Assembly: GCA_026417515.1 (NCBI GenBank) | Contig: JAOADC010000009.1 | Coordinates: forward strand, 1 to 33,588 | Origin: Actinomycetota bacterium | GTDB taxonomy: Bacteria; Actinomycetota; Aquicultoria; SKW223 | Reading direction: 5' to 3' | DNA length: 33,588 nucleotides | Shown here: positions 618-30,309 of the stretch, one piece after another | Layout: each line of letters opens with the position of its first letter | Position numbering within the stretch: position 1 is the first letter of the stretch | Notes under the pieces: generated by a model | The model's database searches: none | Seen by the model: only the letters and a program-made list of their open reading frames with translations | What the model was told of the DNA's origin: nothing | Position numbers and translations under genes: made by a program

Positions 618-1805
618 TCAAAGTCCTTCTGTTTCTAACATTGCTTTTGTTAATGGGCTTTCTTCAATATGGCAGAATTCGCAGACATTTCCACCAAATG
701 TTGATGCGTGACACAGACAATTCATATATGGATTACTTTTAGCAGCCTTTTGATGTTCTAAAAACCACCATTCAAAAGGTCCATGCATTGTATCTCCTTC
801 TTCAGGATGGCATCCACAAGCCCTTTTGTTAGTAGCTCCATTTTCAGAATGGCAGCGAACGCAAAGAGATCTATTTTTGAAAGAATTTTTGGCGTGTGTT
901 CTCACAAATATCTGTGGGTGGGGCATCTCTGTTCCATGACAAGGATTACAGGCTGCATCAACTTCTTTTGGATGGCAAACTTTGTAGCACTTTATTGGTC
1001 CTGTTCCTATTTTTTGCACCAATATTGCATCTTCAATTTTGGCTTTGCTTATAGTCACATCCTCATTATGACATCGCTTACATTCCTTCATGGCAAACGA
1101 TTCCTTTCCATTGTGGCATTCAGCGCAAATCTCTTTTGACGGTAAGTTTTTTTCGGAATGGCCTGAGTTTGCATGACAATCGATGCAATTTATAGGGAAT
1201 TCATTACCTGAAACGAAATCAGAATGCCTGACTTTAGTATAAGTTCCAATGGTTTCTTTGATCTCATTAAGATGGCAATATCTACATGAGTCTTCAAAAA
1301 CCTGAATATTTTTGTCACCCTTAGCTAGTTTGAAGTGAATAAGAAGATTTTCAATTTCCCTGGGCAGGCTTTGCATTTTTCCGAGTAAACCAGGACTTGT
1401 GTGACAGAAAATGCAATTAACATTCTTATGAGCCTTGTTGTTTTTGTGATCGTTAAAAGGCTGTTTTATTTCGTGACAAGAAGCACAAAAGTTTTCATCA
1501 TAGTGAGTGTAATAATATCCAAAAGCAAGAGAAAACAAAAAGAGAGACAAGAGAAAAAATCGAATTGCTTTTTCAAATGGAGTTCGCTTCCTTCGAGCCC
1601 TATTTTTTATGGCTCTCTTTATCCGAAGTTGCTTAAGAATACCAGATATGGATAGCGCAGACAAAATAAGTATAAGTACAAGAATTGTTGCTGCGACAAC
1701 GATAACTGCCATCTGTTCTCTGTGCTCGAAAGGATCTGAAAAAATTACTTTAAAATTATTGAGATTTTCGAGTGCCTCTTTTATATTCAGCTGTCCTATC
1801 ATCAT
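618..1805 (-). CDS. membrane-anchored multihaem cytochrome c (NapC/NirT-like), about 9-12 haems
   Basis: Predicted quinol-linked or electron-conduit cytochrome c with 395 residues. I start it at ATG 1805, which overlaps the upstream cytochrome stop as ATGA and has AGAAGG just upstream; the open frame extends 26 codons further but that is the neighbour's coding sequence. Two N-terminal hydrophobic helices (around AVIVVAATILVLILIL and RFFLLSLFLFSLAFGYYY) are followed by FCASCHEIKQPF and CIFCHTSPG, the start of a NapC/NirT-type haem domain. I count nine CXXCH sites (CASCH, CIFCH, CRYCH, CIDCH, CAECH, CKRCH, CNPCH, CVRCH, CEFCH), one CX3CH (CYKVCH) and two CXCH sites (CGCH, CLCH). The helices suggest that haems lie on the outer face of the membrane. 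Its 3' end overlaps the upstream pseudogene remnant on the other strand. Electron partner unknown. Confidence 0.87.
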   Translation of the reverse strand: MMIGQLNIKEALENLNNFKVIFSDPFEHREQMAVIVVAATILVLILILSALSISGILKQLRIKRAIKNRARRKRTPFEKAIRFFLLSLFLFSLAFGYYYTHYDENFCASCHEIKQPFNDHKNNKAHKNVNCIFCHTSPGLLGKMQSLPREIENLLIHFKLAKGDKNIQVFEDSCRYCHLNEIKETIGTYTKVRHSDFVSGNEFPINCIDCHANSGHSEKNLPSKEICAECHNGKESFAMKECKRCHNEDVTISKAKIEDAILVQKIGTGPIKCYKVCHPKEVDAACNPCHGTEMPHPQIFVRTHAKNSFKNRSLCVRCHSENGATNKRACGCHPEEGDTMHGPFEWWFLEHQKAAKSNPYMNCLCHASTFGGNVCEFCHIEESPLTKAMLETEGL

Positions 1806-2815
1806 CTTACCTTCTGTTTCTGGAATACCTTTTCTGGCGTCCAAAATGTTCCAAAATTTGGATGAACGTGTTTTGTATGACATTCAGCGCAGGCGCGAGA
1901 ATCATGACACTTAAGACAATTATCAGTACCAAATTTTTTTGAGATGCTTGCGTGTAGCTTTAGAAAATTATCCCGATGTGGCATTTCTATTCCATGACAG
2001 GAATCACACCTCTTTTTATCATGGCAGGCGTAACATGCACTTACATTTTGCCTGTCAGTGTATTCCCAATGTGAGTAAATCCATGAATCAGGATGAGGTA
2101 TTTTGATTTTTAGATTCTTTGCTAAAACATGGCAGTTTGCGCAGTAATCCTCTTCATGGCACACGCTGCATTTCTTAGATTTCATTGCACCATGAATATT
2201 TATGTAATTATCAGGATGAAATTTTCCATAGATTTCTAAGTTTTTAGAAAGCAGTTCTTTTTTTCGACCTGTATGGCAAATTGAACAATCAGAGGAGGCA
2301 AAAGTGTCGTCATGACAATCCAAGCAAAAAAACATCGAAGGCTTGTAATAAATTCTCTCATTAAGTTTGTGAGCAATTCCACCATGACAGTATGTGCAGT
2401 TCTTCGTAGTTTTCAGGAAATCCTTGTGTCTGACTCTTACTTTTCCTTTTAAAACTTCTTTTCTGACTTCAGGATGGCAATCAAGACAGATTTTGCTGTC
2501 AAAGAAGTAGCCGTTTTTGATCTTTCCTCCCAATAAGAATGATGTTAGGTTCCTAGTGGCATTGATCTGTCCTGCTATAAAATTTGAAATACCCTTTCCA
2601 GGATGGCATACTGAGCATCTCAATTGACTATGGGGACTTAGCTTGAATAGGTTAGAGTAATTCCTTAAGAGATGGCAGGATTTACAGAAGTTGTTTGAAT
2701 TTAAGCTATAGATGTAGATCAATTGGGATGTGAAAAAGGCAGCAATTAAAAAAAGAAAAAGCATCTTGTATTTTTTCTTATAAAAATTGGTATTATTAAA
2801 GGGTGCCTTCGTCAT
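1802..2815 (-). CDS. membrane-anchored 12-haem cytochrome c (NapC/NirT-like)
   Basis: Multihaem cytochrome of 337 residues from ATG 2815; a GTG at 2824 is an alternative start and neither has a strong ribosome site. One uncleaved N-terminal helix (MLFLFLIAAFFTSQLIYIYS) is followed by the NapC/NrfH-like opening NNFCKSCHLLRNYSN, then LRCSVCHPGKG. Twelve CXXCH motifs follow in order: CKSCH, CSVCH, CLDCH, CTYCH, CLDCH, CSICH, CSVCH, CANCH, CYACH, CDSCH, CLKCH, CAECH. Family knowledge: such proteins take electrons from membrane quinol and pass them to periplasmic or surface partners. First gene of a two-gene unit, coupled to the next cytochrome by an ATGA overlap. It is transcribed divergently from the Rex-like regulator. 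Haem attachment would need the Ccm machinery encoded at 6666-11272. Substrate cannot be told from sequence. Confidence 0.9.
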   Translation of the reverse strand: MTKAPFNNTNFYKKKYKMLFLFLIAAFFTSQLIYIYSLNSNNFCKSCHLLRNYSNLFKLSPHSQLRCSVCHPGKGISNFIAGQINATRNLTSFLLGGKIKNGYFFDSKICLDCHPEVRKEVLKGKVRVRHKDFLKTTKNCTYCHGGIAHKLNERIYYKPSMFFCLDCHDDTFASSDCSICHTGRKKELLSKNLEIYGKFHPDNYINIHGAMKSKKCSVCHEEDYCANCHVLAKNLKIKIPHPDSWIYSHWEYTDRQNVSACYACHDKKRCDSCHGIEMPHRDNFLKLHASISKKFGTDNCLKCHDSRACAECHTKHVHPNFGTFWTPEKVFQKQKVR

Positions 2816-2830
2816 AATTTTCACAGATTA

Positions 2831-6625: not shown

Positions 6626-6665
6626 ATTCTAGCTTCAATTAATGTTAAAAAGGCAGGTGTCATCC

Positions 6666-7061
6666 TTGAGCCGCAAAAATAAGATGCTTGTCGGCGGTCT
6701 TCTAGCGTTAATCCTCATCGGTTATTTGATATGGTCTTCCTTCGCCACTGCTTCTCAAAAAAATATTTCTGTGAAGGAAATAGTTGAGAATACTGAGAAG
6801 TACAAAGATGCTCAGATCCGCCTTACTGGTAAAGTTGCTCCTGGGACTATAAAAAAGGAAGGAAAGACCATTGAGTTTGAGATAACTGAAGGGGGTTCGA
6901 ATTTCAAGGTTATTTATAAGGGTGGAGTACCCAACTCTTTCCAGGACAATGCTGATGTTATTGCAGATGGTGAAATATCTGAGGACGGTAGCTATTTTAA
7001 GGCAAAAAGCCTTATTGTGAAGTGTCCTTCAAAATATACAGCAGGGGAAGACAAAAAATAA
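6666..7061 (+). CDS. ccmE: cytochrome c maturation protein CcmE, Cys (CXXXY) variant
   Basis: Periplasmic haem chaperone that carries haem covalently before handing it to the lyase. TTG 6666 is preferred to ATG 6642 because AGGTG (6655-6659) is spaced 6 bp from it; this gives 131 residues. One N-terminal anchor helix (LVGGLLALILIGYLIWSSF) is followed by an OB-fold domain: YKDAQIRLTGKVAPGTI, FEITEGGSNFKVIYKGGVP, DNADVIADGEI. The haem-attachment site reads VKCPSKY, a CXXXY motif in place of the HXXXY of classical CcmE. Cys-type CcmE marks the System I* variant known from archaea and some anaerobic bacteria. First gene of the ccm operon, 25 bp before ccmF. Confidence 0.93.
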   Translation: MSRKNKMLVGGLLALILIGYLIWSSFATASQKNISVKEIVENTEKYKDAQIRLTGKVAPGTIKKEGKTIEFEITEGGSNFKVIYKGGVPNSFQDNADVIADGEISEDGSYFKAKSLIVKCPSKYTAGEDKK

Positions 7062-7086
7062 TAGTTTAGATTGATGAGGTGATTAA

Positions 7087-9054
7087 ATGGTTTCATTAGG
7101 AAACGTATTTACGTGGCTTGGTTTTGTCTCGTCTCTTATTCTTGTTTTCATCTCCTTCAGGTACAGGCCTGAGAATAAATCTTTAAAGAGATTGATAAAT
7201 TATCTCATTTTCGTTCCATTTATTTTCTCGCTCTTAGCGTCAGCAGTTCTTTTAAATGCTTTCCTTACAAGAAACTTCCAAGTAGATTATGTTGCCAGGT
7301 ACTCAAGTTCTGATCTCCCTCTCTTTTACACAGTTACAGCCTTCTGGGCTGGCCAAGAAGGTTCATTGCTTCTCTGGACGTTGCTTTTATCTCTTTTTGC
7401 TATTATTTTTTGGTTTTCTGTAAGAACGAAGAAATATGCTGGTATATCCCTCGGAGTTACATCGATTGTATCTACCTTCTTTTATTTGGTTGTGAGCTTA
7501 CCGGCAAATCCTTTTAGAACTCTTCCTCAGCCAATGAGAGAAGGTTTTGGTCTGAATCCTCTTCTCCAGAACTTAGGAATGGTTTTCCATCCACCAACTG
7601 TTTTCTTCGCCTACGCCCTATTTACTTTTCCATTTGCAATCGCTATCGGTGTTCTTGTTAGTAAGTCTTTTGAAGAAAAAGCCTGGATTAGAGATATGAG
7701 ATTGTGGACAATATTTGCCTGGCTTTTTATTGGAATTGGAAATGTTCTTGGTGCCCTATGGGCTTATGTTGAGTTAGGCTGGGGAGGTTTTTGGGCCTGG
7801 GATCCAGTAGAAAACGCATCATTGCTTCCATGGCTTACAGGCACAGCGCTCCTTCATTCGATTACAGTTTATGAAAAGAAGAAAACGCTAAAGGTCTGGA
7901 CTTTCGCTCTTTCATTCATAAGTTTCTTTTTGTGTATTCTGGGTACCTATATAACAAGGTCTGGTGCCATTGCCTCTGTGCATGCTTTTCAATCTTCACC
8001 AATTGCAGGATATTTCCTTACTGCGCTTATCATAATATTGTTTGTACCAATTTTCATACTGGCTATGCGTTATAAGGACATCCAGGTGGTTGATATAGAT
8101 AACTATCTAACAAGGCAGGGCACCTATGCTATTTCCAACTGGCTTTTTACTGCTTTCACTATCGTCGTTTTATGGGGTACGATGTTTCCTCTTTTCTCAT
8201 CTATATTTGGTAGGGCAAGCTCAGGAGATGAGGGATTATCTGTTGCAAGGGCGTTCTTCGATACATACACAGCACCGATAATGTTTGCAATCGCAATATT
8301 AATTGCCATTTGTCCTCATTTTACTTACAAAGGCGTCGATCTTAAGAAAATCGCCAAATTGCTGGGTTTAGGTTATGTTGTTGGTGCAGTTATTGTAGGT
8401 CTTACCTGGAGCTTTTGGAAAACCAATTTGATTGGCGCTCTTTCAGGAGCAACAGGATTTGCGGGCCTTGTCACCACCTTATACATCTTTATTGAGGACT
8501 ATCTAAGGCATAGGGGAGGCTTCTTGAAGAGGTTTTTACAGAATGGCAGACGTTACGGTGGCTATATAGCCCACATAGGGGCCATTTTGATGTTTATTGG
8601 AGTATTTTCTGCAACTATCTACAAAACTGAGACAAACATCACTCTCAATCAAGGTGAAAGCGCTACATTCAAGGATTTAAAGATAGTTTACGAAGAACCT
8701 GTTTACTTTAAAGGTCCAAATTATGAAAGATATGGTGCAAAAGTAACTCTTGTCGATAGTGGAAATGTAGTTGGAAATCTCTATCCAAGTTTTTCTTATT
8801 ATCCTGCAGGAAACCAGCAGACTTACGAGGTTGACATAGATTGGGGAATATGGAGAGACGTTTACCTGGCGCTTAAAGAAATAAGGGGAAGTGAACCATA
8901 CACAGCAACAATAACAGTCAGCCTTGAACCACTTACAATGTTCATCTGGTTAGGTTCTCTAATACTTTTTACAGGAACAGTTTATGCAATGTGGCCAAGG
9001 AAAAAGCCAATTGAAACTGAATCTGAAAATGATACTGATATTCAAGGAAGCTAA
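7087..9054 (+). CDS. ccmF: cytochrome c haem lyase subunit CcmF
   Basis: Large polytopic membrane protein that moves haem from CcmE to apocytochrome. It has 655 residues, in the CcmF size range. The haem-handling WWD motif is WGGFWAWDPVEN (from about residue 232), followed by SLLPWLTGTALLHS. Further family elements are the early FWAGQEGSLLLW segment, MVFHPPTVFFAYA, and SVHAFQSSP, with His residues in positions typical of haem ligands. The C-terminal HIGAILMFIGVFSATIY and a closing helix before a charged tail complete the pattern. Start ATG 7087 has GAGGTGA upstream. In System I*, CcmF may act without CcmH; no ccmH or ccmG gene occurs in this window. Confidence 0.96.
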   Translation: MVSLGNVFTWLGFVSSLILVFISFRYRPENKSLKRLINYLIFVPFIFSLLASAVLLNAFLTRNFQVDYVARYSSSDLPLFYTVTAFWAGQEGSLLLWTLLLSLFAIIFWFSVRTKKYAGISLGVTSIVSTFFYLVVSLPANPFRTLPQPMREGFGLNPLLQNLGMVFHPPTVFFAYALFTFPFAIAIGVLVSKSFEEKAWIRDMRLWTIFAWLFIGIGNVLGALWAYVELGWGGFWAWDPVENASLLPWLTGTALLHSITVYEKKKTLKVWTFALSFISFFLCILGTYITRSGAIASVHAFQSSPIAGYFLTALIIILFVPIFILAMRYKDIQVVDIDNYLTRQGTYAISNWLFTAFTIVVLWGTMFPLFSSIFGRASSGDEGLSVARAFFDTYTAPIMFAIAILIAICPHFTYKGVDLKKIAKLLGLGYVVGAVIVGLTWSFWKTNLIGALSGATGFAGLVTTLYIFIEDYLRHRGGFLKRFLQNGRRYGGYIAHIGAILMFIGVFSATIYKTETNITLNQGESATFKDLKIVYEEPVYFKGPNYERYGAKVTLVDSGNVVGNLYPSFSYYPAGNQQTYEVDIDWGIWRDVYLALKEIRGSEPYTATITVSLEPLTMFIWLGSLILFTGTVYAMWPRKKPIETESENDTDIQGS

Positions 9055-9061
9055 TTAGATT

Positions 9062-9784
9062 ATGACCCCTGTTATTGAAGTAGATAGATTGGAAAAATCT
9101 TTTGGCCATAAAAAGGCTTTAAGAGGAGTCAATCTCAAGGTTTTTGAAGGCGAATTTATTGTGCTTTTCGGCCCTAATGGTGCTGGGAAAACCACTTTAC
9201 TAAAAAGCATTTCTACGCTAATAAGACCGACCAGGGGTCGCATTCTGTTCAAAGGTAAGGAAATTGATGATGGTTCAATTTCTCTTCGTGAGACAATTGG
9301 TTTGGTATCTCATAACACTCTGCTTTATGAGGATCTTACCGCTTTCGAAAACCTTCTTTTTTACGCAAGGATGTATGGGGTACCTAATCCAAAGCAAAAA
9401 ATCGAAGAATTGCTTCATATGGTCGGGCTTTATCATCGCAAGGATGATGTTGTAAGAACTTTTTCACGAGGTATGCTTCAAAGACTTACCATAGCAAGAG
9501 CAATATTGCACGATCCACCTGTTCTCCTTTTGGACGAACCATATACAGGTCTTGATGTTCAAGCGATGAAAATCCTGGACGACCTTCTTTATAATTTGAA
9601 GGATGGATTAAGAACCTTCATTATGACTTCCCATGATATTCAAAAGGGTTTTGAGCATGCAACAAGATTGGCAATACTTCATTCAGGTGAAATCGTCTTT
9701 GATAAGAAGAAGGAAGAGATTAGCGTTTTAGAGTTTGAGGAAGAGTTTTGGAAGTGGGTAAAGGAAAAAGAGCCGGTTTTTTAA
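9062..9784 (+). CDS. ccmA: haem-exporter ATP-binding subunit CcmA
   Basis: ABC ATPase that powers release of holo-CcmE from the CcmC-haem complex. In its 240 residues are Walker A GPNGAGKT (37-44), a signature sequence FSRGMLQR in place of the usual LSGGQ-type loop, Walker B VLLLDEP and a switch His in MTSHD. The FSxGMxQR signature is typical of CcmA-like ABC proteins. It follows ccmF by 7 bp and overlaps the start of ccmB by 37 bp. The AAGGAAGC stretch inside the ccmF end could serve as ribosome site. Confidence 0.95.
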   Translation: MTPVIEVDRLEKSFGHKKALRGVNLKVFEGEFIVLFGPNGAGKTTLLKSISTLIRPTRGRILFKGKEIDDGSISLRETIGLVSHNTLLYEDLTAFENLLFYARMYGVPNPKQKIEELLHMVGLYHRKDDVVRTFSRGMLQRLTIARAILHDPPVLLLDEPYTGLDVQAMKILDDLLYNLKDGLRTFIMTSHDIQKGFEHATRLAILHSGEIVFDKKKEEISVLEFEEEFWKWVKEKEPVF

Positions 9785-10440
9785 GACAGGTATTTTACAT
9801 AGTAGCAAAAGATTTCAGAGCAGAGTTGAGGACAAAGGAGCTCTTCAACTCAATGTTTCTTTTTGCAATGCTTGCGCTTGTTATTTTCAACTTTTCTTTT
9901 GCAGGCAAGATGCCTGTGAGAGTTCTCTCGGGTGCTATGTGGGTATCATTCCTGTTTGCTTCTGTCCTTGGTTTAAATAGAAGTTTCGTTAAAGAACACG
10001 AGAAGGGTTGCATTGAAGGTCTTCTCATTGCTCCTTGCGAAAGAAGTGTTATTTATTTTGGCAAGTTCCTAGGCAACCTCTTATTCATTTTTCTTGTAGA
10101 GTTAATAGCGCTTCCATTGATTTCGATCTTCTTCTCTAGAAGTGAGATATTTTCTAAGCCTTTCGAGCTTGCTGGTATTCTTGTTCTGGGAAGTTTTGCT
10201 ATTTCAGCAATTGGAACGATACTTTCTGCCATTACAGTCAATACAAGAACAAGGGAGCTTCTATTACCAATACTTCTATTTCCACTTATCTTACCTGTAC
10301 TGATTGCTTCTGTTGAAGTAACCGCCTACATCTTTCAACCAAAAGGCAGTATCATCCAGTGGCTTCGCTTGATAGGTATTTATGATATTATCTTTATCAT
10401 CGTTCCATATTTACTCTTTGATTATGTTGTTGAGGAGTGA
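9748..10440 (+). CDS. ccmB: haem-exporter membrane subunit CcmB
   Basis: Six-helix integral membrane partner of CcmA. The 230 residues start at TTG 9748 (GAGG 7 bp upstream) or GTG 9754; either lies inside the ccmA 3' end. The N-terminal FYIVAKDFRAELRTKELFNSMFLFAMLALVIF and later ENxxGCIEGLLIAP-like stretch (HEKGCIEGLLIAPCERS) are characteristic of CcmB, as is ELLLPILLFPLILPVLIA. Cytoplasmic membrane location. The stop overlaps the ccmC ribosome-binding region, suggesting coupled translation. Confidence 0.95.
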   Translation: MEVGKGKRAGFLRQVFYIVAKDFRAELRTKELFNSMFLFAMLALVIFNFSFAGKMPVRVLSGAMWVSFLFASVLGLNRSFVKEHEKGCIEGLLIAPCERSVIYFGKFLGNLLFIFLVELIALPLISIFFSRSEIFSKPFELAGILVLGSFAISAIGTILSAITVNTRTRELLLPILLFPLILPVLIASVEVTAYIFQPKGSIIQWLRLIGIYDIIFIIVPYLLFDYVVEE

Positions 10441-10445
10441 TTGCC

Positions 10446-11135
10446 TTGAATAAGAAGGCTTTGGACATCATTCTTTATGGCTTGCTCTTGATTGGTATGT
10501 TTGTTTCTCTTTATCTGATCTTTCAGTACGCACCTCCTGCAATCAATCCAACAAACAATCAAACCTGGTACGAACAAAAAATCTTCTACGTCCATGTAAG
10601 TTCAGCCTGGACAGGCTTTTTAGCATTCTTTGTTGTTGCTGTTGCATCGATAATTTTCTTGCGAAACGAAAGTAGGATTGCAGATCTTGTGGCTCAAACT
10701 TCTGCAGAGATAGGCATAGTCTTTACGACACTTACACTAATTTCAGGTCCACTATGGGCGAAGTCTTTTTGGGGACGATACTGGGATTGGTCTGAACCAA
10801 GGTTGGTTACTGCTCTAATACTTTGGTTTCTCTATATTGGATATCTGATCTTACGCTCTTCAGTAGGAGAAGATTTTAGAAGAGCAAGGTTTGCAGCAGT
10901 CTTTGGTATTATCGCTTTCTTAGACGTTCCAATAGTATTTCTTTCAGTAAGATGGTATCGAGCATCTCATCCACCACTTCTTGTTTTTGAACCAGGAGGT
11001 TTGGATCCAAGCATGAAGGTAGCATTTTTCTTCACCTTATTCATCTTTACTGTTTTTTATGTAGTCCTGCTTAGAAATGCTTTAAGAATAAAATTGCTTC
11101 AGGATGAACTAAACAGGCTCAAAGAGGTGATTTAG
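10446..11135 (+). CDS. ccmC: haem-handling protein CcmC
   Basis: Membrane protein that loads haem onto CcmE. TTG 10446 is chosen because GAGGAGTGA (10432-10440) ends 5 bp before it, giving 229 residues; the frame also allows GTG 10437. Family marks are FYVHVSSAW (first axial His), the tryptophan-rich WGRYWDWSEPR that corresponds to the WWD motif, and the second His in SHPPLLVFEPGGLDPSMK. Six hydrophobic helices are visible. The C-terminal tail runs directly into ccmD after 2 bp. Confidence 0.95.
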   Translation: MNKKALDIILYGLLLIGMFVSLYLIFQYAPPAINPTNNQTWYEQKIFYVHVSSAWTGFLAFFVVAVASIIFLRNESRIADLVAQTSAEIGIVFTTLTLISGPLWAKSFWGRYWDWSEPRLVTALILWFLYIGYLILRSSVGEDFRRARFAAVFGIIAFLDVPIVFLSVRWYRASHPPLLVFEPGGLDPSMKVAFFFTLFIFTVFYVVLLRNALRIKLLQDELNRLKEVI

Positions 11136-23739: not shown

Positions 23740-24594
23740 CTAATCGCTGAAAACAATCGTCTTTCCATTGTGAACAATTATCTTGTTTTCAATATGTAAT
23801 TTGACCGCTCTTGCTAAAACCAAAACCTCTATGTCCTTTCCTTTTCTTCTCATCTGCTCAACACTGTCTCTGTGGCTGACCTCAATCACACCCTGTGCAA
23901 TTATCGGTCCTTGGTCAAGCTCTTCAGTTACGTAGTGTGCTGTAGCACCTATAAGTTTTACACCTCTCTTATAGGCTTGGTAATAAGGATCAGCACCAAC
24001 AAAGGCAGGCAAGAAGGAATGGTGAATATTGATTATTTGATTTGGATAGAGTTTGACAAAATCGGGAGAGAGTATTTGCATATATCTGGCAAGAACTATG
24101 GTATCAACATTATGTTTTTTAAGTACTTCAATTACTTGCTTTTCCTGTTCTTTCTTTGTTTCTGGTGTTACAGGGAGATAGTAGTAGGGAATGTTATGAA
24201 ACTTAACAGTTTCTTCGTGATCTGGATGGTTCGAAATTACAGCCTTGAGCTCAGCCTTAAATTCACCTGATCTGAAACGATGTAGGAGGTCAAAAAGGCA
24301 ATGCGGCTGTTTTGATGCAAGGATAGCAACTTTTTTCATCTCATCAGAAAAGTAGACCTGAACTTCCTGACCGACTTCATGGCAGACTTTTAATGCATCG
24401 TCAACCAACTTTTTTCTGTCCAATCTGGTTTCTTCGATTTCGAATTCAACTCTCATAAAGAACATTTTTTCGAATGGATCAGTATGCTGATCCAAGTAGA
24501 CTATGTTGCCTTCGTTTTTATAAATCCAGTTGGTTATGGTTGCGATTATCCCTTTTCTGTCTGGTCCTTTTACCAATAGGGTAGCCGTTTTCAT
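23740..24594 (-). CDS. purU: formyltetrahydrofolate deformylase PurU
   Basis: Hydrolyses 10-formyl-THF to formate and THF, releasing formate or balancing folates. 284 residues: N-terminal ACT domain (LLVKGPDRKGIIATITNWIY and on), then the formyltransferase-like domain: VAILASKQPHCLFDLLHRF, VLARYMQILSPDF, INIHHSFLPAFVGADPY (catalytic His) and ATAHYVTEELDQGPIIAQ (catalytic Asp). No ribosome site is evident before ATG 24594. It lies 13 bp after the giant gene's stop and precedes tadA. Confidence 0.95.
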   Translation of the reverse strand: MKTATLLVKGPDRKGIIATITNWIYKNEGNIVYLDQHTDPFEKMFFMRVEFEIEETRLDRKKLVDDALKVCHEVGQEVQVYFSDEMKKVAILASKQPHCLFDLLHRFRSGEFKAELKAVISNHPDHEETVKFHNIPYYYLPVTPETKKEQEKQVIEVLKKHNVDTIVLARYMQILSPDFVKLYPNQIINIHHSFLPAFVGADPYYQAYKRGVKLIGATAHYVTEELDQGPIIAQGVIEVSHRDSVEQMRRKGKDIEVLVLARAVKLHIENKIIVHNGKTIVFSD

Positions 24595-24607: not shown

Positions 24608-27600
24608 TTACTTTCTTACATAATATGGAAGTCTCAAAGGTTTCATTATGCCAGTATGTGCTCGATGACATGCAGCACAAAGATCGCTATCAGAACTTAC
24701 CTTGCCAGGTGGAATCATAAACTCGTAGGAGATTGATTCATCACCATACTCATTTTTTGAAATGACTCTAAAGTAGTAAATAGTATTTGGAGATAGTCCA
24801 TTAATGGTCACTGAATGAGTTGTAACCAGTTCAGTTGTTTCAGTGGTTTCAAAGGAGTAGGTTTCTGTTGAAGCATGGCTTACAGTATCATAGACAACCT
24901 TAGAAGTGGCAGGAATGTCTGTATACCAGGTTATCGTTGTTGATAGTGTTTCTGTTGTACCAATTAACAAAGGTGAAATGTGAGTTGCTTTCACTTCAGA
25001 AATGATTGGTGCGGGATCTATCCTTATTGCTTCAGAAAATTCTGAGGTGGAACCATCCTTGAAAATGAACGTTGCAACTACAAAATCAGAAGCTGAAGGT
25101 TTCAAAGCATCTAATTTCTTTTCAAATTTAAAGGATCCATTAGAAACCTCAGTTTCTCCTAAATAGAGAGTGGGGTTTCCATGGTTGTCTGACAGATAAA
25201 TTTCAACCCTTCCTTCATCAAAGATAGCGCTTTCAGTTGAGCCAACGTAACCTGAGATGGTAAGAGTTGGCTCCTCATAAATTGCAGCAGTTAACCTCGG
25301 AGAATCTACTCCTAAGTTTGGTTCATCAATACTTATTGAATTGTCAATGGGTTCTTTACCAAAATTGCCAATGTCTATTTTTTCAGCGCAGTTGACATAC
25401 CTGTTTTTGGTAAGTTCAACTCCTGTACCTTCATCTACCTTAACTGCTGTGTTACAAGCAAGAAAACTTACATTGGTTACCCTGCACGCAGAGTCAAAAG
25501 CATATTTACTGCTTGTAAGCACATTTGGATTGATGAAGTCAGTGTAATCTACAGTAGTGTTAGCAAGTGTAAATTTTCCAGTCAAGGCCTCTCTATAAAT
25601 AACAAAAATCGGTGAATCAGAAGAAATTTCAAAACCATCTAAGTTTTCTTTGATTACTAAAAAATCTGGCTTCATCAGCGTTCCTTGCAGAAATAATTTC
25701 CTCGAATTGTTTTCATTCTTCAGCGTTAAATTTGTCGGCGAAAAAGCAGCAATTAAAATGGTATCGCTTTTGAGTGTTGTCCAAAACTTTGTTGCAAGAT
25801 AAGACTCAGGAACAAATGCAACAGAAGAATCATTGTTGAAATCGAGAGAACCAAAGGCAACGATTGGTTTTGAAGAAATCAAAAATGCCGAACAAAGTTT
25901 TCCCTTTAAAGGTTTTAGATTTTCGTTTTCAGTCAGGTCATAGATAATGCCTGGCTCCAAAACTTCTTCAAAGTTAAAAGTTTTTCCGTCTTCTGTTCTT
26001 CCATAGACAGAAATAAATGATTCAGATTCAGAACACACAAGGAGGCTATTTCTAAAAACACCAAAAAGTTTGGTGTCTGCTGGTGGAATATATAACCAAT
26101 CATCTTCATTTTTAATCCGAGCAGAAAGGGCAGATTCTGATTCGATGGATATTGCTCGTTCGCTTTCATTACTCTCTATATTAAGAGGCAAAGTAACTTC
26201 AGATGTGGAGTAGACATCCATTCCAAAATAAAATGTTGCATTCGCACTCGCAATTTCTGATTGGTAAGGGAAAATTGAAAGTTGAAAGCCAGCTGGCAGA
26301 GGAATCAAGAGTTTTTTACTTGCAAAACTTCTCTTTGGTTCGCTACATCCTCTTTCTGAAATAATTGATAATTCTCCACGCTTATAAAATCTTTCAGGTT
26401 TATTGAATTCGAAGATTTTAGAAGAGTATGGGCTGATTATTGATGAAACGTTTGAAAAATCTAGACTAGAGAAACTCTTTCCAGAAACTGCAGCAATTTT
26501 TTCATTAGAAGGTAGAAATGTTTCTATAGAAAATTCTTTGGTGTTTGCTTCTAATATTGCTTTATCTGAAATGGTTTTTCTCTGAACTATTCTTAAATCT
26601 CCAAACGATTTGCTTTTATCGATTACCAGTGTGGATGTCGGTTCTACTAATGATTTGTTTATTGCGAAGGGCACGGATGATAAATCCTTGGCATTAATAA
26701 CCATTAATGATTCGCATAAATCAGAATTCACTCTTAATGAATTTGAAGAGTCAGGATCTTTTGCAGAAATTACTCTTTCATATTGTGGAACGGAAAATAC
26801 TATTCCTTTTTCAAAACCGGATATTTTTAGGTTTTGTATTTCCGTTCCAGGTGAAAGTACATTTAAGCAATATTTAAGCGAGTTTTCGGTGCCTCTAAGA
26901 ATTACTGTTGAAGAAGCCATCGAGTGATTTAGATTGTTACCATCAATCAAAATAGAATCAACAATATCGGGTAAAGTTTCCTTCAGGTTTATATAGAATT
27001 CATCCAAAGATTCAATATAGTTGCCTGATTGCCTCGTTAAGTAAAATCTTATGCTTTGTTTTCCTGGTAAAGCGTTTGCATTGGTTATTGCCTGGCGCAA
27101 CGAGCCCTGTGAAGGCATCAAGGAGTCGTAAGTGTTTACAACCAAGGTGAACGAAAAGCCAAAATCGATTCCCGAAACATATTCTGAATCGTCAAGATGA
27201 ACAGGCGTTATGTGTTCATAAATGTTAAAGGCGGGGTCGGTTTCTTCAGACCAAAAATCAGAAACTATCGGATCTTCCCCACCAGGTTTTATATAGGTTA
27301 TTAATTTTCCATCTATATAGCCGTTAGCAAAGTACTCTTCAGGTATAAAATTCGAAATGGTGTTTTCGTTATCATTAACAGATTCACCACATGATGCTGA
27401 GCTAACGCAAACAAGATAATTTCTTGAGTTCAAGGCAGGTAGGCTATAGATGCCATTCTCATCGGTCACAGTTTCAGCAACAAATCTATCAATAGTGCTT
27501 AGGGTGTCGTTCTCATCCACATCTTCGTAAAGTCTTACTCTTGCGCCCTCAAAAACCCTTTCCCCTTTGTCGTATCTTGCGTTTAAATTTTCGTCTTCAA

Positions 27601-28888
27601 ACACTCTACCTTCGATCTTCTTGAATTTCACAAGTGGATCCACTGGAGCTTTCTTAGCCACAGCAAAAATTCCTGGTTCTCTTATACTTAGCACTGAAAC
27701 TGTTAGAGTTGTTAAATTATCTGAATTTGAAGTGGGGTCATTTAGTAGCAAAAGATTAGGCATTCCTTCAGTACTTGAAATAACGGGAAAAGCACTGCCT
27801 GAAGTATCTGAATTTAGAGAAATAAAGCAAACACCTGAAAAGGGAAGAGTCAGGGATTTCTGGGCAGTTGTCGTTGTTAGGCAATCAACTTCCCTGTAAA
27901 GATCTTTTGAGGCATCAAACAACTGGAAAATGCTAGAGCGAGTCTCAACTTTTAATAAAGAGGCATCGATTGAACTACCCGCTGAAGTTGTGTTGTCTGA
28001 TTCCATCCTGATAAACATTGATGAACCATAATGAGCGTAATCTTTAAATATTGGCTGTAGAAGTCCAAGTTGTGCGTTCTCCATTGGCTGGCTGAAAACT
28101 GATGCAAAGTAAAACAATTGATTTTCCTTGCTACCATTAAAAAGAGACACGCAAGCATTTCTTGATACATAGTTAGAAACAAAGGAATCCACGCTCTGTG
28201 TGGTGGCTTCAAAAATTACATTATTAAAAGAAAATCTACCCGATTTAATTCCCAGGAAGTAAGCAGTTACAGTTTCGGTTACTGTAATGTCCAGAGAAGA
28301 TCTGGCAATGGATGCTTTGAAACCATTACCATCTTTAAAGGCATAAACAGTTACAGGTTTTCCATCGTTTACGTAGGCTGGAGACGAAATCACAATATCT
28401 GGATTTGTAGAAAATTCTAAATCTTTTGGTTCCTTTCCTAATTTTGCCTGGATTACTTCTATTAAATCCATAGTTGAAGTTAGATTCGAGTAAGAGGAAG
28501 CATTATCGTTACCATAATACATATAGATTTTCTTCTTCTCGTGGGCATTAAGTTTCGGGATTTTTACCCATATTATTGCTTCTGTGGTATTTTTTCTGTC
28601 TGGCCATTTTTCAATCCAGTAAGAAAGCATATTTCCATACTCATCTACAAATCGAAGATCCCTACCATCTTCTGCCGTTTGGGAAAAATCAAAGAAATTC
28701 GAATTGAGGTAGATTTTTACCTGTTGATCATATAAATCAGAACCTGATCTCTCTTCCACTTCAATTGGATATCTGAATTTAAAACCTTCAAGCCACTCGG
28801 ATCTGGCGGTCTGCTGAAAATAGAAAAAAATGAAAGTGCTTAGAAAAATAACAATTATCGATAATAATTTGATCTTCTTATTCTTCAT
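24608..28888 (-). CDS. giant exported mosaic protein with terminal c-type haem motif
   Basis: 1426 residues from ATG 28888, with a weak ribosome site. In order: a signal peptide/anchor (about 1-28); a DUF2341 domain (about 32-125: FKFRYPIEVEERSG, DGRDLRFVDEYGN, KKIYMYYGN); an unassigned part; an SdrD_B/Cna-like carboxypeptidase-regulatory domain (about 430-500: GRVFEDENLNARYDKGERVF, TDENGIYSLP); a CSLREA-like beta-helix start (VVNTYDSL then GSLRQAITNANALPG); a long unassigned insertion; a beta-helix remnant (FLACNTAVKVDEGTGVELTK); and a fibronectin-III-like module (LSTTITWYTDIPATSKVVY then INGLSPNTIYYFRVISKNEYG). It ends with DLCAACHRAHTGIM: one CXXCH at 1404-1408, with His1411, as in paired-CXXCH repeats. 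The C-terminus may be cut short: such motifs usually come in pairs or arrays. A surface location is likely. Role unknown. Confidence 0.85.
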   Translation of the reverse strand: MKNKKIKLLSIIVIFLSTFIFFYFQQTARSEWLEGFKFRYPIEVEERSGSDLYDQQVKIYLNSNFFDFSQTAEDGRDLRFVDEYGNMLSYWIEKWPDRKNTTEAIIWVKIPKLNAHEKKKIYMYYGNDNASSYSNLTSTMDLIEVIQAKLGKEPKDLEFSTNPDIVISSPAYVNDGKPVTVYAFKDGNGFKASIARSSLDITVTETVTAYFLGIKSGRFSFNNVIFEATTQSVDSFVSNYVSRNACVSLFNGSKENQLFYFASVFSQPMENAQLGLLQPIFKDYAHYGSSMFIRMESDNTTSAGSSIDASLLKVETRSSIFQLFDASKDLYREVDCLTTTTAQKSLTLPFSGVCFISLNSDTSGSAFPVISSTEGMPNLLLLNDPTSNSDNLTTLTVSVLSIREPGIFAVAKKAPVDPLVKFKKIEGRVFEDENLNARYDKGERVFEGARVRLYEDVDENDTLSTIDRFVAETVTDENGIYSLPALNSRNYLVCVSSASCGESVNDNENTISNFIPEEYFANGYIDGKLITYIKPGGEDPIVSDFWSEETDPAFNIYEHITPVHLDDSEYVSGIDFGFSFTLVVNTYDSLMPSQGSLRQAITNANALPGKQSIRFYLTRQSGNYIESLDEFYINLKETLPDIVDSILIDGNNLNHSMASSTVILRGTENSLKYCLNVLSPGTEIQNLKISGFEKGIVFSVPQYERVISAKDPDSSNSLRVNSDLCESLMVINAKDLSSVPFAINKSLVEPTSTLVIDKSKSFGDLRIVQRKTISDKAILEANTKEFSIETFLPSNEKIAAVSGKSFSSLDFSNVSSIISPYSSKIFEFNKPERFYKRGELSIISERGCSEPKRSFASKKLLIPLPAGFQLSIFPYQSEIASANATFYFGMDVYSTSEVTLPLNIESNESERAISIESESALSARIKNEDDWLYIPPADTKLFGVFRNSLLVCSESESFISVYGRTEDGKTFNFEEVLEPGIIYDLTENENLKPLKGKLCSAFLISSKPIVAFGSLDFNNDSSVAFVPESYLATKFWTTLKSDTILIAAFSPTNLTLKNENNSRKLFLQGTLMKPDFLVIKENLDGFEISSDSPIFVIYREALTGKFTLANTTVDYTDFINPNVLTSSKYAFDSACRVTNVSFLACNTAVKVDEGTGVELTKNRYVNCAEKIDIGNFGKEPIDNSISIDEPNLGVDSPRLTAAIYEEPTLTISGYVGSTESAIFDEGRVEIYLSDNHGNPTLYLGETEVSNGSFKFEKKLDALKPSASDFVVATFIFKDGSTSEFSEAIRIDPAPIISEVKATHISPLLIGTTETLSTTITWYTDIPATSKVVYDTVSHASTETYSFETTETTELVTTHSVTINGLSPNTIYYFRVISKNEYGDESISYEFMIPPGKVSSDSDLCAACHRAHTGIMKPLRLPYYVRK

Positions 28889-29367: not shown

Positions 29368-30309
29368 ATGAGAAATGATAAGTCCGTGTACATTAATAGA
29401 TGGAAGATAGTGCCAATTTATACTGATAAGAATGTAGATAGATATATCCTTTTTAGCGAAGCACAGAAAGAAAATGCATTAGTTGTTAAAGAAACAAGAC
29501 AGATCTCTCGTCTTAAAGTCATTAACAAATCGAACAAAAATGTGCTCATAACGCAAGACGAAATAATAACAGGTGGTCTTGAAAAAAGACTCGCTAAAAA
29601 AGCAGTTCTGATTGCTGCAAATTCCGGTGTAGAAATTCCTGTGTATTATCCAAGAAAAGATTGGCTTATTGACTTTAATACATACAATGACATTAATAGT
29701 GATGATCTATCTTTTTTTGAAATCGATAAGCCAAACAAGAAACATATCAGTGAAAGTAGCGAAAAACTTGTTAAATATCGTAAGAGTTCAGTAAAGTCGA
29801 AAAACTTACATCAATCAAAAGGAAATAAAGAAGAAAACGCAGAAATTCATAATATGTCGGAAGAAAATGATCCTGATTGCGTTCAACAAAAAAGCCAAGT
29901 CTACTATAACAAATCTTTTAATTTCGATTTCCCAGACTGGTATAGAGAAATTTTCGACCAGATAAAAAGGAAAATCAAACCTAGAAGAGGACAGACTGGA
30001 ATTGCCTTTTATAATAGCGGTATACTTTGGCATCTCAGATATCTTATTCCAGATAGCAAATTTAAGATTTACCTTCGTACTGCTTTAAATAGTTTTATTC
30101 CTAATCTACTTATAGAACAACCTCCATATTATGAAGGAATTACTAAAAATGATTTTTTCGATAAAATTCGCGAAGCAAAAATTGAAAAATCAGAGTCGTT
30201 AGGAGAAAACTTTACAATTAGGGCTGGTTTTTCATACACTGCATCAGGACTTATTTATAAAGATTCAATCATTTACTTCGCTCTTGATAGATATTACATC
30301 TATTATTAA
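29368..30309 (+). CDS. ARPP-1-like domain protein, function unknown
   Basis: 313 residues, soluble. The N-terminal 100 residues follow the ARPP-1 (ARG and rhodanese-phosphatase-superfamily-associated) pattern: RYILFSEAQKENALVVKE, SRLKVINKSNKNVLITQDEI, then ITGGLEKRLAKKAVLIAANS and EIPVYYPRKDW, equivalent to the family's GE-x-x-x-GG-x-QxR and PV-C-E-x-RW stretches. A polar low-complexity linker (about 125-185) follows. The last 130 residues fit the family C-terminus: RRGQTGIAFYNSGILW and RTALNSF, ending near RAGFSYTASGLIYKDSII. Enzymatic role is unproven even in the family. No ribosome site is seen. Base composition is more A+T rich than neighbours. The domain call is by motif memory only. Confidence 0.6.
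   Translation: MRNDKSVYINRWKIVPIYTDKNVDRYILFSEAQKENALVVKETRQISRLKVINKSNKNVLITQDEIITGGLEKRLAKKAVLIAANSGVEIPVYYPRKDWLIDFNTYNDINSDDLSFFEIDKPNKKHISESSEKLVKYRKSSVKSKNLHQSKGNKEENAEIHNMSEENDPDCVQQKSQVYYNKSFNFDFPDWYREIFDQIKRKIKPRRGQTGIAFYNSGILWHLRYLIPDSKFKIYLRTALNSFIPNLLIEQPPYYEGITKNDFFDKIREAKIEKSESLGENFTIRAGFSYTASGLIYKDSIIYFALDRYYIYY

Follow-up and report, generated by a model that had tools for sequence, protein, structure and literature searches.

The locus raised the question of whether a very large exported protein that ends in a single CXXCH motif is a true single-haem protein, or the front of a longer multihaem protein from which a haem array was deleted where the next gene, purU, begins. Both options were left side by side in the original prediction, which was made from the window (the whole stretch of DNA analysed: 33,588 nucleotides of contig JAOADC010000009.1, Actinomycetota assembly GCA_026417515.1). 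Homologue comparison favoured the former: the single C-terminal motif was present in all four homologues, on two unrelated architectures, which supports a true single-haem protein at the level of sequence. The end of the protein is probably a genuine conserved mono-haem module that derives from the first site of a multihaem protein and would dock on, or make electron contact with, multihaem cytochromes; its haem attachment, surface location and partner are predicted. Unless stated otherwise, the features described below lie on the minus strand of the window.

Extent and domain composition of the giant ORF

The ORF (24608..28888) has an ATG start, encodes 1426 residues (aa) without an internal stop and has a full-length orthologue in G001/L052. 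The giant exported mosaic protein with one C-terminal CXXCH was confirmed. Direct reading of residues 1-31 (28796..28888) identified an N-terminal signal peptide or membrane anchor, with a basic n-region and a hydrophobic core (MKNKKIKLLSIIVIFLSTFIFFYF). The DUF2341 domain (residues 74-144, 28457..28669) was matched by Pfam (2.6e-20 and 9e-22; 73.1 bits, cut-off 23.4) and is 55% identical to the orthologue. The SdrD_B-like beta-sandwich (residues 426-498, 27395..27613) scored 25.6 bits, under the curated cut-off of 29.7. A first beta-helix-like part (residues 581-715, 26744..27148; 42% identity to the orthologue; fold putative) is followed by a fast-evolving insert (residues 716-1130, 25499..26743; 19.5% identity) and by a second beta-helix-like part (residues 1131-1200, 25289..25498; 40% identity), where a weak Pfam Beta_helix match was obtained with the orthologue (E=0.003), which gives the proposed split beta-helix weak support. 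AlphaFold modelling of residues ~587-1303, with a two-sequence alignment only, gave a mean pLDDT of 39.

The fibronectin-III (FN3) domain (residues 1291-1395, 24704..25018; 70.5% identity to the orthologue) was recognised by the Pur_ac_phosph_N profile PF16656 (residues 1313-1386; 38 bits, cut-off 30), by the AlphaFold model and by Foldseek matches to FN3 proteins, the match to the fn3 profile PF00041 being below its cut-off. It is followed by the putative haem site DSDLCAACHRAHT (residues 1400-1412, 24653..24691; CXXCH at 24665-24679, His1411 at 24656-24658) and by a 14-residue tail, GIMKPLRLPYYVRK (24611..24652; stop codon 24608-24610), whose RL-YVR residues are common only to the orthologue. 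The 1426-aa protein contains 15 Cys and 11 His, and its single CXXCH (residues 1404-1408) consists of C1404, C1407 and H1408, with a second His at H1411 and the stop 15 residues past H1411, directly after residue 1426. From this composition, 0.0012 CXXCH and 9e-6 CXXCHxxH would be expected by chance per protein. The attributes of a mono-haem c-type cytochrome found here were a CXXCH in an exported protein (N-terminal signal by direct reading) and the conservation of this motif in four of four members.

Homologues and downstream genes

Orthologues were sought in a set of 60 related genomes, the relatives' assemblies being drafts of 150-250 contigs. Module proteins came from the window's own genome (G000), from a genome of the same family (G001), from one of the same order (G002) and from one of another order in the same class (G004). 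The orthologue in G001 (L052), the nearest genome, has 1484 aa from the listed start and ends in DTDLCAYCHRSHTAVAPRLRLFYVRE-stop; the gene that comes next encodes a tadA-like deaminase, not PurU. The proteins of G002 (~1180 aa, ending in DTDLCAACHRGHTA...) and G004 (~1280 aa, ending in ETDLCASCHRSHTA...) stop 32 residues from the first Cys and are followed by an MFS gene or other sequence. The CXXCH is not a chance motif, since it is conserved in three other genomes.

At the locus itself, purU (formyltetrahydrofolate deformylase, 23740..24594) is intact, unrelated and 13 bp downstream of the giant ORF, the gap from stop to start reading TAA-CAGTTGATAAACA-ATG. On the other side, an ARPP-1 domain protein is encoded divergently from the giant ORF (29368-30309, plus strand). 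No conserved gene neighbour pointing to a partner was found at the four module loci.

Boundaries of and selection on the C-terminal module

The module consists of one FN3 domain, [IL]PPG, four variable residues (x(4)), [DE][TS]DLCAxCHRxHT and a tail of 13-25 aa. It is carried by architecture A (DUF2341; G000 and G001) and architecture B (BNR-like; G002 and G004), and within each of these pairs homology spans nearly the whole chain. Between A and B the last ~120 residues are common: BLASTP aligned solely A residues ~1262-1413 with the end of B, stopping at HT, and the tail residues past HT are not conserved between the architectures. His1303 and His1338 are invariant in all four members. With the four-sequence alignment, AlphaFold gave a confident FN3 core (pLDDT mostly 80-95) and modelled the haem motif as a short, low-confidence helix; Foldseek with this model returned FN3 proteins.

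Identity in the A pair is 66% in the module versus 33% outside. Synonymous sites are saturated throughout this pair (pS 0.77 both in and before the module), and pN is 0.23 in the module versus 0.49 before it. As part of the same joint judgement as the mono-haem module itself, purifying selection has probably kept the module since its ancestral shortening. A relic in the course of being lost is conceivable, but the selection argues against it.

Occurrence of the module

Among 36 genomes of the class searched by profile, only these four had the complete module, and no further one came from 397 genomes sampled evenly across the phylum. The known members (n=4) all belong to one class, with at most one copy seen per genome, and include all three sampled genomes of the window's own order. 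A codon pattern for D-x-CAxCHRxHT was found in the four module genomes and in two in which the site opens a multihaem array. Whole-protein peptide patterns retrieved no relatives from the contigs of 84,980 species, and a search with the module alignment returned three module loci plus FN3-only matches in other phyla. The module was not found in viral contigs, and a PDB search with it returned FN3 proteins only. Literature searches for a single C-terminal CXXCH with FN3, or for DUF2341 with haem, found nothing on point. The Pfam and NCBIfam releases searched hold no model for a haem-bearing end domain of this kind.

Probable derivation from the first haem site of multihaem proteins

By direct reading, the first site of multihaem proteins in the class follows the pattern P-H-G-x-Y-x-x-D-T-x-x-C-x-x-C-H-x-x-H...LL...C-x-x-C-H. 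Of the 30 listed first sites, 26 have a His 8-13 residues before the first Cys, and in two of the remaining four it is merely displaced by extra residues. The corresponding position is Pro (PPG) in all four single-haem tails, and these tails stop where the second CXXCH of a multihaem protein would come. The profile of an OmcS-like hexahaem family of the class matched OmcS (PDB 6ef8, E=1.2e-8) and OmcE (7tfs, E=1.5e-4), and the part of it that covers the first site also matched the tail of the module protein in G004 (E=1e-7); residues 8-19 of OmcS face the same motif in the profile alignment. The His that OmcS donates to the interface haem is presumably His16, the CHxxH His of this first site. 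When one OmcS-like and one hexahaem protein were each used as a single query against the PDB, no match was obtained, unlike with the family profile.

Judged from these alignments, the tail is the first haem site of a multihaem protein, shortened to one haem and adapted, not decayed, because the upstream His has become Pro, the stop falls at the place of the second CXXCH and the OmcS-like profile matches. The idea that the protein is the front of a multihaem protein thus survives as an old origin, the tail being homologous to a first haem site, and does not hold as damage at this locus.

Relatives that are longer and carry arrays were also found. One is a 7162-aa ORF of G052, from the same phylum, with two DUF2341 matches and ten CXXCH; it lies at ~4003-25488 (minus strand) of contig 9 (L162/L163), flanked on both sides by multihaem ORFs. 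A 1119-aa protein of G066 has a beta-sandwich, then PPGPHGNYQLDSDLCALCHGSHTA, then ten more CXXCH.

Cytochromes and haem maturation in the module genomes

Cytochrome c maturation genes were identified by Pfam at 6642..11135 (plus strand): CcmE, CcmF, an ABC ATPase in the CcmA position, CcmB and a CcmC-like gene. This cluster is compact and lies a few kilobases from the window's two adjacent multihaem cytochrome genes (618..2824, minus strand; NapC/NirT-like, 12 then 9 CXXCH). Neighbouring multihaem pairs similar to these recur in contigs 14, 62 and 68 of the same genome, which has at least 12 multihaem ORFs in 1.25 Mb, two of them inside the window. Because of these Ccm genes and multihaem ORFs, haem attachment would be expected for an exported protein with a CXXCH.

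Paired-CXXCH proteins are present in all four module genomes. OmcS-like hexahaem proteins were found in six genomes of the class (L046, L037, L038, L049, L042/L050 and L040), and OmcS-type filaments may exist in this lineage, given the PDB matches of the family profile to OmcS and OmcE. Contig 62 of the window's genome (L106:2820-3626, plus strand) encodes a 269-aa hexahaem protein with the first site PHGGYTTSTNKCKYCHAVH and a weak OmcS-like profile match (E=6.5e-7); it is a possible candidate partner. L053 (DYIV01000073.1), from a MAG record titled Slackia heliotrinireducens, a label that may be wrong, encodes a large exported mono-haem protein, and its genome has many multihaem cytochromes.

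Alternative explanations

A recent truncation, in which the haem array that followed the first CXXCH was lost at the present start of purU, would fit both the stop at the expected place of a second CXXCH and the 13 bp to purU. Equivalent stops in three other genomes, where different genes lie downstream, the conservation of the tail (LRL-YVR) with the orthologue and the Pro in place of the upstream His in all four members make it extremely improbable. Deletion by purU at this locus was excluded on four assemblies with equivalent stops and different neighbours, and truncation is possible only as an ancestral event. The module might instead be conserved and haem-free, with its cysteines paired in a disulphide or joined with the histidines in a metal site, and with a structural tail. 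A single CXXCH that lacks the usual upstream ligand is indeed unusual and AlphaFold confidence over the tail is low, yet the CXXCH is exact, stands in a multihaem-like context, belongs to an exported protein and occurs in genomes that also encode Ccm and numerous c-type cytochromes, and the second His is invariant; we consider this unlikely. Somewhat less likely again is a C-terminus that acts mainly as a sorting or attachment signal read by an envelope protein, the haem being incidental. Its fixed C-terminal place on unrelated N-terminal architectures is typical of sorting tags, but it lacks a hydrophobic segment, a basic end and any known tag, the residues past HT differ between the architectures and no genome was seen to carry more than one copy.

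An alternative of a different kind keeps the haem and makes the module the cap or anchor of an OmcS-type filament: by mimicking the N-terminal first haem site of a subunit, it would donate its CHxxH His to the terminal subunit, as a ligand of the interface haem there, and in this way tether the filament to a surface protein. One axial ligand of the interface haem in OmcS and OmcE is a His of the adjoining subunit (PMC6584659; PMC9473688), and, according to a review, a terminal OmcS subunit would be left with a five-coordinate haem, its attachment to a membrane anchor being a possibility (PMC7096707). This His donation, with a module that aligns to the OmcS-like first site and through it to OmcS residues 8-19, suggested the idea. 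It predicts that the module is accompanied by full-length OmcS-like proteins, which fails because only one of the four module genomes (G002) has one, although six genomes of the class do; all that the window's genome has is the 269-aa hexahaem protein, in which the match covers the first site. We therefore hold the cap to be a long shot, if a slightly better one than the sorting signal. The same low expectation applies to the general form of the idea, a haem plug whose dedicated role would be to terminate or anchor chains of extracellular cytochromes by supplying an axial His and one haem, wiring filaments or arrays to non-cytochrome surface proteins. The mono-haem docking module is preferred, since the OmcS-like co-occurrence fails.

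Proposed working of the module

The mono-haem docking module would have arisen when the first site of a multihaem (OmcS-like or paired-CXXCH) protein was shortened and then kept by selection, and it would form the terminus of large exported proteins of at least two unrelated kinds. The giant protein would be exported by Sec, and one haem c would be attached by the Ccm system. The FN3 domain would hold out this haem, together with the free His1411, at the distal end of a long surface protein. There the module could dock on multihaem cytochromes outside the cell and pass electrons and/or provide an axial His for a partner haem. A contact point for extracellular cytochromes is suggested by the single c haem, the second invariant His (H1411), the lack of an upstream His and the position at the end of a long surface-type protein. 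The partner is possibly a multihaem protein other than the OmcS-like ones, as all four genomes have paired-CXXCH proteins. The haem-tipped adhesin of the original prediction is putative in all three respects: the bound haem, the exposure at the surface and the adhesion.

It is an open question how chains of extracellular cytochromes begin, terminate and are held at the cell, and the module is a small candidate for such a contact. It would be an example of a multihaem unit that was cut down to a single haem and put to new use on another architecture and, if it merely holds a single haem for surface redox chemistry, it would still be a haem-bearing end domain.

Comparison with known systems

The first haem site of the OmcS family (Geobacter OmcS, PDB 6ef8, and the OmcS-like proteins of the class) matches the tail motif D-T-D-x-C-A-x-C-H-R-x-H-T. 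The module differs from an OmcS-type nanowire in having one CXXCH, not six along the mature chain; it keeps the CxxCHxxH, but C-terminally, behind an FN3 domain, whereas the OmcS site is at the mature N-terminus and has the upstream His that is Pro in all four modules. Doubled-CXXCH domains (Paired_CXXCH_1, PF09699; TIGR01905) comprise two CXXCH ~20-40 residues apart, of which the module has the first half, CxxCHxxH, without the second CXXCH. No significant PF09699 match was obtained at the site, which lies outside the PF09699 matches of the genome, and TIGR01905 gave only 13.6 bits with the G004 tail. Ig/FN3-fused multihaem surface cytochromes (C17 of the window's own genome, 1281 aa with 11 CXXCH, and the 1119-aa protein of G066) have a beta-sandwich directly before the first CxxCHxxH, as in the module, but continue into an array of at least ten haems where the module protein ends. 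The fold and score of the first part of the module are like those of FN3 and purple acid phosphatase N-terminal domains (PF00041, PF16656); generic FN3 domains have no haem site, unlike the module with its invariant His1303 and His1338.
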